A DNA stretch of 64,000 bases from Cystobasidiopsis lactophilus (lineage: Eukaryota > Basidiomycota > Agaricostilbomycetes > Agaricostilbales > Chionosphaeraceae), in NCBI GenBank assembly GCA_001599975.1, contig BCIO01000001.1, positions 806,001 to 870,000 on the forward strand, given 5' to 3'. Below, piece by piece: positions 9,841-18,219 of this stretch; within the stretch, counting starts at the first letter, position 1, and each line of letters starts with the position of its first letter. The translations under genes and the position numbers were made by a program. The notes beneath the pieces are model-generated. The model was not told the origin of the DNA. It worked only from the letters and a program-made list of their open reading frames with translations, and made no database searches.

Positions 9841-10528
9841 AGGGCCGAACGGTTGCTGAAGAAGGACAGGGCTAGGCCAGCTTAAGCAAAGCGCTGGGGG
9901 CCCCGTTTTTTAGCTCAATATCAACCCCTCTCTCGAGGGGGCAATGACCCTGCCCTGTGTCGTATGTCGATGGCCCGCGGTAGGGGCCGACAGATCTCAG
10001 CAGATGGACTGCCTCTGCCTTGTTGGAAGCACTGACGATCCCCCATGCCGGGGGAGGGCGAGAGGAGATAGGGAAGGGGGGAGGAGGTCAGACTGACACT
10101 GATAGTGACTACCTCTCACCTTCTTACTGCTGTTTTCGATTCACAAGCTAAAGCGCAGGACCAGATGGCGAAACGGGAGCAAGAGAGGTCCCCGCCTCAA
10201 CGGCTTGTTTTTTTTTTCGCATGAGAAAGGCCAAATTGTGGGTTTCTAGATGCTCTTGCACAGATCACACACGACACGCTCACCATGGGATAATTCAGCT
10301 GGATTCGAGCAGACTCGCCACCAGTCTCAGTCCAAGCAGTGCGTGTGACCTCGTCCGACCTTACGAAGCTCTCAGTCCGGTCCACTCTCAGACGTGTACT
10401 CTACTCACCTGGCCAATCTTCGTCTTATCCTCAGGGTCGGCCGTGCTACTCGGGGCATTTGACGGTGGTGGCGTGGGTTTTGGCTTCAAAGTTTTTTGCA
10501 ATTTAACGCCATCGTCGACTCCCTGACT
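9841..10528 (-). repeat. inverted-duplication arm A
   Basis: The reverse complement of this stretch aligns along its length with 17555-18219. Matching blocks read from arm A in the minus direction include CCGACCCTGAGGATAAGACG, GGTCGGACGAGGTCACACGC, TTATCCCATGGTGAGCGTGT, CTAGAAACCCACAATTTGGC, GGCGGGGACCTCTCTTGCTC and ACAGGGTCATTGCCCCCT. Similarity looks high and includes intron-like sequence, with small indels; a region of about 100 bp (10000-10130) is much less alike. Both copies can be read as THE end of a short peptide containing ADPEDKT(K/N)IGQ, but other frames are broken or disagree between copies. The arm ends about 140 bp upstream of ADE5,7. Confidence 0.8.
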
Positions 10529-10670
10529 TCATTTTGTTCTGTCCTCATCCTCCAGAGGCCAAAGCACGCAGTCCTTCCACACCTTGGCTCGCGAGCTCGC
10601 GAAGTCACGTTTCGAGTCTTCAACACTGGCGAAAAAATCGCGCAGTGCAAACTTGTCAACAGCCGTCGAG

Positions 10671-13384
10671 ATGTCCCTTAAAATCCTGCTGATTGGCTCT
10701 GGCGGGCGAGAGCATGCCATCGCCTGGAAGCTAGGCCAATCCCCGCTGGTCCAGCAGGTCTTCGTCGCGCCAGGTTGGCTCTCCTCCAAAATTTGTTGAT
10801 GCATCAAATTTAATGCAATGCGCAATGACAGGCAACGGGGGGACGTGCAGCACCTCGAAATGCACCAACGTCGACCTCAAAGCGGACGACTACCAGGGAC
10901 TGGCCAAGTTCGCGCAGGCCAATCAGGTCAACCTGGTCATTCCGGGGCCGGACCAGGCTTTGGTGGATGGCATCGAGCTCGTCTTCCGCAAGCGTGCGTC
11001 CACTCCCCCCTTGACCCTTTTGAGAGTCTCTCGAATGTTGACGTGGCACAGTGGGCATTCCGTGCTTTGGCCCAACGCCGGAAGCAGCGGAAATGGAAGG
11101 CTCCAAGGCGTACGCCAAGTCCTTCATGAAGCGCCACGCCATCCCTACCGCCGCCTACGAGACCTTCACCTCCTTCGACTCGGCCTCAGCGTATCTCAAG
11201 GCCGCCACCTCCAGGCTGGTCATTAAAGCGGACGGCCTCGCTGCTGGCAAAGGCGTCCTGCTGCCCGAGTCTACCGCCGAAGCTTTAGAGGGGCTGAAGA
11301 GCATCATGGTTGACAAGGCCTTTGGCGAGGCGGGCGGGAAAGTGGTCATTGAGGAGTTTTTGGAAGGGCAGGAGCTGAGCGTATTGGCGTTCTGCGACGG
11401 CTACACCATCTTGCCTCTGCCGCCTTCTCAAGACCACAAGCGTGTCGGCGAAGGCGACGTGGGACTCAACACCGGCGGCATGGGCACCTATGCTCCTACA
11501 CCACTGGCTACGTCGACCTTGAACGCGCAAATCATGGCCCAGGTGTTGCAGCCCACCATGAAAGGCATGCGCAAAGACGGCCGGCCGTTTGTGGGCTTGC
11601 TCTTCGTCGGCCTCATGATCACTCCCGTTGGCGAGATCAAGGTGCTGGAGTACAACGTCCGATTTGGCGACCCAGAAACCCAATCCCTTCTCGCCCTCTT
11701 GGACTCGGACCTCGCCGAGCTGATCCTCGCGGCGGTCGAGCGGAGGCTGGACTGCCAAGAACTCAAATTGAAGAATGCCTCGGCTGCCACGGTCGTGCTG
11801 GCGAGCGGGGGCTACCCAGAGAAGTATGCCTCCGGCGTACCGATCACTATCTCTGCCTTGCCTTCAGGTATGGACTGTGCTCTACCTCAGTCTCCTCGAT
11901 CGTCACTTAGGCTTCGCCTGAACGCATACAGGAGTCAACGTCTTTCACGCCGGCACCGCAGTTAAGGAGGGCCAGCTCGTCACGGCCGGTGGGCGGGTGC
12001 TGAACGTCACCGCCGTCGCTTCCACGTTGGCAGAAGCCGTCAAGCTCGCATACCAAGGCGTCGCCGCGGTGTCGTTCGACAAAATGTACTTCCGCAAGGA
12101 CATTGCCCAGAGGTCTGTCCCTCACTCCTGCTTGAAGATTGACATTTGTCTCAATCGTCCGGATTGCCTGGCAATCAGGGCGTTCCAAGCGATCTCCACT
12201 TCAGGCATGACCTACGCTTCCGCCGGCGTTGACATCGAAGCTGGCAACTCTTTGGTCGAGCGCATCAAGCCCTTGGTCAAGGCTACCAAGCGGCCCGGCT
12301 CTGACTCGGTCATTGGTGGCTTTGGCGGCCTGTTTGACCTCAAAGCGGCCGGATACGACAACCCTATTCTGGTCAGCGGCACAGACGGAGTGGGCACCAA
12401 GCTTAAGGTCGCTCAAGCCATTGGCAAGCATGACACGATAGGTTTGGACCTTTCCCTTCGTTCAAGTGCTACTTCTTGTGCTGAATTCAGATTGAACAGG
12501 CATTGATTTGGTGGCTATGAGCGTGAACGACTTGATCGTGCAGGGCGCCGAACCACTCTTCTTTCTCGATTACTACGCGTGCTCCAAGCTCACCATCGAC
12601 ATCGCCGCTGATGTCATCAAAGGTGTTGCGCAAGGGTGTAAGGACTGTAACTGCGCTCTCATCGGCGGCGAGACGGCCGAGATGCCTGGTCTTTACGAAG
12701 GAGGTAAACCGCTCTTCTCTCTTATACCCGCCATCAGTGAATCTCATACTCGTCCGTGGTTTCACAGACGACTATGATCTGGCCGGTTTCGCAGTCGGCG
12801 CCGTGGACCGCGATTCGATCTTGCCTTCGCCTGACATCCGGAAAGGCGACTCGCTCATCGCTCTGGAATCCGCCGGCTGCCACGCCAACGGCTACTCGCT
12901 CGTCCGCAAGATCGTCGAGGCCTCCCCGCTAGAGTACAGCTCGCCCGCACCGTGGAACCCAAGCCAGACTTTGGGCGACGAATTCCTCGTCCCAACCCGA
13001 CTTTGGATTTCTCAGCTCCTACCCGTGCTCCGAGACCCCAAGCTCAAGGGAGCCATCAAAGGCCTGGCCAACATCACCGGCGGCGGCTGGATCGACAACA
13101 TTCCCCGCATGCTGCCTAAGACGGTCACCGCCGATATTGACGTCTCACGCTACTCCCTTCCGCCCATCTTCAAGTGGCTCAAGGAGCAAGGGCAGGTCGA
13201 CTCGCTCGAGATGACCAGGGCGTTCAACTGCGGCGTCGGTATGGTCGTTTGCGTGGCGGAAGGGCGAGAGGCGGAGGTCATTGCCGCTTTGAATTTGGCC
13301 GGAGAGGCAAAGGCTTGGGAGTTCGGCAAGCTCATTGAGGGCAATGGCGAGGTAGCTTTGCGAGGGTTCGAGCATTGGGGATAG
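10671..13384 (+). CDS. ADE5,7: bifunctional GAR synthetase / AIR synthetase
   Basis: Catalyses two steps of de novo purine synthesis: phosphoribosylamine + glycine to GAR (N-terminal half) and FGAM to AIR (C-terminal half). The start [20 protein letters not shown] is the GARS N-domain. The ATP-grasp part shows [31 protein letters not shown] and [14 protein letters not shown]. The AIRS half begins near [14 protein letters not shown] and has [69 protein letters not shown] and [15 protein letters not shown]. Six introns are inferred (the first 10774-10831, with donor GTTGGC). The total, a little under 800 residues, fits fungal Ade5,7. It converges on EF-2, about 270 bp apart at the stops. Arm A of the inverted duplication lies just upstream. 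Confidence 0.97.
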
Positions 13385-17208: not shown

Positions 17209-17554
17209 GTTGGGCAGCAAATTTCAGAGGCGATTTGGGTGCAAAAAGCTGTCTAAAAAGGATTGAACGCTTCGGTTCCTGTCCAAGAAGGTCAGCGCCG
17301 GTTCTAGCAAATCCTCGATGACTCATAAATAGGCTCACTTGTCTCCTCTCTCCTGGAGCCGGAAGCGAGATCGACTCGAAGAGCTGGCAGCAGCGCTTTC
17401 CTCAAGCTGAGTTGAGAGCAAGCCGAAACTTATGGTGCAAGGTTCGATGGCGTCTAGAGCTTCCAGACACCATTGCGTATCTTTGCAAGTGTCATAGAAT
17501 AGAGTCTATGGGAGAGCGAAGACGCAGAGAAAGCACGACACCTGGAAGTCAAAC

Positions 17555-18219
17555 TCAACGACGCCATCAATTTGCCACCACCGTTGAATGTCCCAAGTAA
17601 CACGGCCGACCCTGAGGATAAGACGAATATTGGTCAGGTGAGGAAATTGCACGTCTGAGAGCGGTCTGGGCTGAGATCATCGTAAAGGTCGGACGAGGTC
17701 ACACGCACTGCTTGCCTTGGACTGGTGGCGAGTTTGCTCGAATCATGCTAGATTATCCCATGGTGAGCGTGTCGTGTGTGCTTTCCGAAAGAGCATCTAG
17801 AAACCCACAATTTGGCCTTTCTCATGCAGAAAAAAAAATCAGCCGTTGCGACTTCTCTAAGGCGGGGACCTCTCTTGCTCCCGTTCCGCCATCTGGTCCT
17901 GGTCTTTGGTTCGTCAGTCGAGTGCACCAGTGATAAGGTAAGAGGCCGTCTCTACCAGGGTTAAATTGATCTTCTCCTCTGTTTCCTCTTCTCTTCTTCT
18001 CCTCTCTCGCCTTCACCCTCCCAACGCTTCTCGGCGCTTGAGGGTTCGTCAGCTCTACCTCCCAGCCCACATCTCGGCCCATCCCCCAGCCCACGGCAGC
18101 CCAGGACAGGGTCATTGCCCCCTTGAGAGAGGGGTTGAGAAAGTGAGCTAAAAAAGGGGGCCTCAAGCGCTAGCTGAAGCTGGTCCATCCCTGTCCTTCG
18201 TCGCCAACGTTTCGGCTCT
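17555..18219 (+). repeat. inverted-duplication arm B
   Basis: Second copy of the segment at 9841-10528, in the opposite orientation; it begins about 350 bp upstream of the EF-2 start codon. Read on the plus strand, the part before the shared block is open (ESEDAEKARHLEVKLNDAIN, then LPPPLNVPSN) and leads into ADPEDKTNIGQ followed by GTGAGG. If that GT is not used, both copies reach a TGA after a few codons ending H-V. A second GT..AG pair (CCCATG|gtgagcgtg ... catgcag) is present here, while arm A has CATGCG at the acceptor position. Either the two arms are degenerating copies of a short gene, or the conserved element is not protein-coding. Confidence 0.8.

Follow-up and report, generated by a model that had tools for sequence, protein, structure and literature searches.

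In Neurospora, the small nucleolar RNA (snoRNA) host genes of the UHG/gas5-like type are, in the parts of the published accounts considered here, spliced hosts with short open reading frames (ORFs) that carry one RNA per intron (PMC2780460, PMC3596301). For RNA structures in fungal introns more generally, the portion of the published work used here leaves open the choice between a cis element and an independent RNA (PMC8216456). For basidiomycetes, a search of the literature on intronic snoRNA host genes returned mostly work on mitochondrial genomes. Here, we describe two diverged, inverted sequence arms that flank the convergent genes ADE5,7 and EF-2 of the basidiomycete Cystobasidiopsis lactophilus. 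They lie in a 64-kb stretch of the contig BCIO01000001.1 (C1:806001-870000, referred to as the window), and the genome searched comprises 22,136,282 bases in 8 contigs. The reading that we favour, to which we assign a probability of about 0.45, is that the arms are spliced, probably noncoding host genes with a structured RNA in their intron.

Two inverted arms and a family of predicted long introns

Local alignment by blastn against the window gave a single continuous match between positions 9841-10472 (minus strand) and 17574-18219 (plus strand), with 76.1% identity over 661 columns (E 6.7e-129). The inverted duplication reported in a preliminary description of this stretch is therefore real. 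A free-ended alignment reaches further (10472-9775 and 17574-18318), and at 76% identity the ends of the arms are not sharp. When identity was counted in bins of 40 columns, the seven bins between 10472 and about 10198 had 33-36 identical columns each, four bins within the intron, rich in gap columns, had 13-23, and the two bins at the hairpin described below had 35 and 32, so that the similarity indeed covers intron-like sequence, as had been proposed. The higher identity in the gene-side half of the arms would fit constraint and gene conversion equally well. DNA searches of the genome with each arm as the query led to these two places only and to no third full copy, the genome-wide counts of arm copies being lower bounds. 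Judged by this copy number, the insertion of a mobile element on two occasions, one of the origins suggested earlier, is unlikely. An inversion of the core between the arms, also considered at that time, finds no support in the single assembly, given that the arms are 76% identical and share no perfect block longer than 30 nt.

Read in its own sense, each arm is made up of four parts: segment U, the most upstream one; a promoter-like module (P); a putative exon 1 of 68 nt; and an intron, 314 nt long in arm 1 and 330 nt in arm 2. According to the alignment, and with a selected intron end in both cases, these parts span 9806..10472 on the minus strand (arm 1) and, in the same order and the opposite orientation, 17574..18267 on the plus strand (arm 2). 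Segment U was placed by alignment at 10243..10472 (minus), where the ADPEDKT block lies within it together with the identical stretch of 30 nt, and at 17574..17803 (plus); a 25-nt piece of it, searched with up to 3 mismatches, has sites in the two arms only. Module P has the layout CCCACAATTTGG ... GAAAAAAA ... GCCGTT ... CTTGCTCCCGTTYCGCCA and occupies 10166..10242 (minus; CCCACAATTTGG ... CTTGCTCCCGTTTCGCCA) and 17804..17891 (plus). Counted from CTCTCTTGC as the assumed start, the putative exon 1 would extend over 10120..10187 (minus) and 17870..17937 (plus). The introns that follow are predicted at 9806..10119 (minus, 314 nt, donor GTGAGA) and 17938..18267 (plus, 330 nt, donor GTAAGA), and in both the acceptor CTTCAG was picked among several. 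The acceptors of our first choice, with introns of 625 and 476 nt, were replaced by these aligned CTTCAG sites.

The arm introns belong to a family of seven units that are 72-79% alike. Four loci of this family are known, each of them on C1, and two have the units in tandem. Locus A (C1:1116.8-1118.0k, minus) consists of three tandem exon-intron units (A1-A3), and locus B (C1:1173.2-1174.1k, minus) has two units (B1 and B2) and a doubtful third (B3). A GTRAG donor opens A1-A3, B1, B2 and both arm introns, and the core AGGGYCNTNGCC begins 163, 164, 168, 168, 170 and 183 nt past the donor in six units and 142 nt past it in B2. Intron lengths were 349 nt for A1, 336 nt for A2, 325 nt for A3 and 354 nt for B1; the acceptors were picked by eye in six units, and B2 is without a clear acceptor. 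The family introns (314-354 nt) are long compared with the two introns measured in ADE5,7, which have 58 nt each.

To recover the arms independently of their own sequences, we used a model derived solely from the five units of loci A and B, with the arms held out, and ran it over 104,000 bases. It detected the structured core in the introns of arm 2 (18077..18195, plus; 59.9 bits, E 2e-12) and arm 1 (9865..9987, minus; 56.4 bits, E 1.4e-11). The next matches scored 19.6 bits (E 0.01; window 10633-10746, plus, at the start of ADE5,7), which we take as chance, and 14.4 bits. B3 was dropped as an eighth member: it reached 10.9 bits with a model that included the arms and was missed by the arm-free one. 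Searches with core patterns returned family members only (5, 2 and 2 sites), and a looser pattern had 29 sites, the 6 exact ones all belonging to the family. In 37 other loci (the remaining 23 sites of the looser pattern and 14 loci with a promoter-like motif described below), the model had no match up to E 10. A DNA search with the locus B introns matched locus A, the query locus and copies of module P. For another intron block, CTCCCAGCCCACATT, 85 sites with up to 2 mismatches were found versus 24 for the control, and 5 of the 85 are family members. The count of seven units takes in these 5, and the family may be larger, with more distant members among the other 80 sites.

The intronic hairpin and its interpretation

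Across the seven units, 93.8% of the hairpin cells pair, compared with 84.8% in shuffles. Nine cells were changed on both sides (3.1 ± 1.2 in shuffles) and the covariation score was 0.364 (0.168 in shuffles), values that none of 500 shuffles reached. Further pair types were not clearly raised (10 versus 8.1; 66 of 500 shuffles). With the arms removed, there were 6 cells changed on both sides versus 1.9 ± 1.1 and a covariation score of 0.373 versus 0.152 (0 of 500 for both), 3 double-change pairs versus 1.5 (39 of 500) and 11 further pair types versus 7.0 (2 of 500). The pair at columns 43/75 of the core alignment occurs in four types (AU, CG, GC, UG), and the single-strand stretches AGGGYC and UAAAA are conserved too. 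The evidence for a kept RNA fold in the core is good but not final, because the structure comes from the same alignments and only four loci are available. A second hairpin upstream of the core, SL1, was dropped as a conserved element: z was below -5 in two of the seven units and between -1.8 and 0.9 in the other five.

The duplication, the common donors, the common core and the paired changes in the hairpin are established by the sequence; beyond them, we infer transcription, splicing, RNA release, the noncoding status and the function of the units. In the arms, the 5' part of a single transcription unit (U, P, a short exon 1 and a long intron) would be present twice, as diverged copies in inverted orientation, each presumably transcribed away from its housekeeping neighbour. 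The arm intron would belong to a small set of related long introns in which a conserved RNA hairpin lies close to mid-intron. The host transcript probably does not code for protein; as in snoRNA host genes, the functional product is probably an RNA that splicing frees from the intron. The family appears to have expanded through tandem copying of exon-intron units at locus A and, at locus B and the arms, through segmental and inverted duplication.

The preliminary description had pointed to ADPEDKT(K/N)IGQ with a splice-like donor in both arms, and had remarked that the frames elsewhere disagree. The peptide and a GT donor are present in both arms, and frame-by-frame reading bore out the disagreement elsewhere. 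Single-base, frame-shifting indels occur on both sides of the neighbouring 30-nt identical block, and ADPEDKT(K/N)IGQ thus lies outside any conserved frame; judged from the sequence, these indels argue against coding in segment U. No single reading frame kept in both arms, as in a pair of protein-coding genes, was found. We abandoned the peptide reading, as ADPEDKT(K/N)IGQ and a second candidate exon keep no single frame across the arms. The duplicated short gene or long noncoding RNA that had been proposed is retained in so far as the arms look like the first part of a transcription unit that was duplicated, with promoter-like module, exon 1 and intron, and two more C1 loci have related introns, and is given up as regards a conserved peptide.

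Several observations weigh against a spliced host gene with a working intronic RNA. A sequence-only model detects the arms about equally well (2e-12 and 1.1e-11), so that their detection speaks for homology and not for structure, and the held-out model misses B3. The arm acceptors were picked after the other intron lengths were known, in place of first choices that gave 625 and 476 nt, and the agreement of the arm intron lengths with the others is for this reason no independent evidence. With regard to the fold, double-change pairs on the seven units were not above shuffles (3 versus 2.3; 202 of 500), SL1 clearly beats its shuffles in two of seven units only, and the structure was derived from the alignment on which it was evaluated, with seven sequences from four loci. 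Rfam at gathering level had no matches in the 64-kb window, and no C/D or H/ACA boxes are common to the units. In exons joined by hand, those of the arms at the first-choice acceptors, the longest ATG frames have 33 codons in arm 2, 89 in arm 1, 84 in A and 88 in B, where the frame of exons 1 and 2 is open to the end; because of the frames of 84, 88 and 89 codons, coding stays compatible with the joined exons of A, B and arm 1.

The main rival, which we regard as rather unlikely, is that the hairpin acts in cis within unusually long introns, where it draws the splice sites close to each other or regulates host splicing, with no separate RNA being released. The core sits in the middle of the intron at a near-constant distance from the donor, the introns are long next to those of ADE5,7, and cis-acting intronic structures are known in fungi, as far as the part of the source used here describes them (PMC8216456). 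The conserved AGGGYC and UAAAA, however, are long single-strand stretches that exceed the needs of a spacer fold, and the host exons share no protein product that would need control.

It is less probable still that the arms are plain decaying duplicates, in which an old gene start was copied segmentally and in inverted form, and shared ancestry and promoter constraint account for the similarity without a working RNA. Other local copies do exist: window 27342-29145 is copied at locus B (C1:1174227-1176025, loci L031/L032; 86% over 1,821 columns). The copied 1.8 kb include the 3' half of a gene for carnitine acyltransferase, and stops interrupt it at locus B. Segmental duplication is therefore active locally on C1, and the arms would agree with an inverted instance of it. 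The identity of the units, merely 72-79%, would also agree with decay. What this explanation leaves aside are the paired changes in the hairpin, which exceed shuffles with and without the arms, and the donors, which are kept in all seven accepted units. An introner-like or other mobile element spread as introns is improbable, since, although separate loci have related introns with putative splice sites of their own, only seven units were found, 72-79% alike, at four loci of one contig, and the repeated stretch takes in promoter and upstream sequence in the arms and exon sequence at locus A.

Promoter-like module, neighbouring genes and other repeats

Module P occurs at three further places on C1, namely at window 29052, at C1:1174291 and, more diverged, at C1:1118088-1118162. 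The copy in the window (29050..29141, plus) lies downstream of the carnitine acyltransferase gene, and no family intron was found beside it. The motif CTTGCTYCCGTTYCGCCA at the end of module P has 50 sites in the genome with up to 2 mismatches, compared with 19 for the reversed control. We call it promoter-like on account of this excess and of plausible start codons seen by eye after it in several loci. A crude comparison of the open frames that follow it in 14 loci (of 20, the other 6 comprising the arms, the third copy, A and B) gave medians of 82 and 62.5 codons and no significant difference (p 0.39). The excess of CTTGCTYCCGTTYCGCCA might reflect a core promoter element of this fungus. In 4 of the 14 loci (L012, L016, L019 and L028), GGTGGCAAA was seen 60-176 nt upstream of a motif of the CTTGCTCCCGTTCYGCCA type; it resembles the yeast PACE box. 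On the minus strand, the outer margin of arm 2 carries a similar sequence, GGTGGCAAATTG. L016 and L028 are 84% identical over 511 columns around the motif and probably represent paralogous genes.

The arms lie upstream of ADE5,7 (start at 10671) and EF-2 (start at 17208, minus) and, as described earlier, each is directed away from its gene. Both starts were read from the sequence, guided by the presumed N-termini of the proteins. Pfam backs both genes, with GARS_A (4.8e-80) for ADE5,7 and EF-Tu domain 2 (1.4e-13) for EF-2. By position, a bidirectional promoter common to an arm and its neighbour gene is possible. Downstream of arm 1, a 305-aa ORF (8721-9638) had no match in Pfam and no codon-usage signal (-0.132 in frame versus -0.129 and -0.115) in a test that is weak: of two Pfam-supported checks, GARS, whose gene was also in the training set, scored best in frame, and the HEAT repeats did not.

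Two smaller repeats were seen in the same region. Window 13536-13612, between the convergent 3' ends of ADE5,7 and EF-2, matches C1:804481-804554 (L033) in the opposite orientation (77 columns, 84%). Just left of the window, C1:805192-805500 (L033) contains a direct tandem repeat of 145 nt with 74% identity.

Comparison with known systems

The family was compared with the known classes of structured RNA. Scanning 9400-18700 and the A and B stretches against Rfam by E-value yielded below-gathering matches only, such as sR30 at 18410-18466 (E 0.19), which we take as chance, and a tRNA search gave nothing. In a scan for snoRNA boxes in eight units, the doubtful B3 included, box C (RUGAUGA) was found in none, a C-like box in one (A1) and CTGA in three (A2, arm 1 and arm 2), which does not fit the C/D class. 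ANANNA was present in five of the eight, and within the scanned stretches no ACA followed the core in A2, B2, arm 1 or arm 2, which does not fit the H/ACA class either.

Introner-like elements, as presented in the parts of the reports used here (PMC4457414, PMC9860276), are likewise families of sequence-related spliceosomal introns; unlike them, the present family has a very low copy number and high divergence, and its duplicated stretch takes in promoter or exon sequence. Ordinary segmental or inverted gene duplication explains the arms and the locus B copy, whereas duplication alone leaves the paired changes in the hairpin unexplained. Another comparison is with the conserved intronic structures of fungi, for which, in the portion of the source considered, paired changes also suggest an intronic RNA structure and the choice between a cis element and an independent RNA is also open (PMC8216456). 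The families described there extend across many Ascomycota in named genes, whereas the present one is known from four loci of one genome.

If the hairpin serves splicing only, the family is still a clear case of a structure kept in unusually long introns. If the introns release RNA, this would be an RNA family outside both snoRNA classes, with a visible route of spread, through tandem exon-intron units and local duplication beside housekeeping promoters, and a test case for the origin of new noncoding host genes in fungi. We put forward tentatively, and with less confidence than the host-gene reading itself, that it is a new family of intron-hosted structured RNAs, neither C/D nor H/ACA, which resides in fast-changing noncoding hosts, two of them divergent from ADE5,7 and EF-2, and spreads inside a single chromosome as exon-intron units are duplicated in tandem and segments are duplicated, also in inverted form.

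By analogy, the architecture would work like that of a snoRNA host gene, without assignment to either snoRNA class. As in the fungal snoRNA host genes, so far as the portions of the reports used here describe them, we would have, as predicted from the sequence, spliced transcripts of probably low coding content, with one structured RNA per intron, introns in a row and canonical splice sites; unlike in those genes, C/D and H/ACA boxes are not shared, and the units are paralogues of one RNA.

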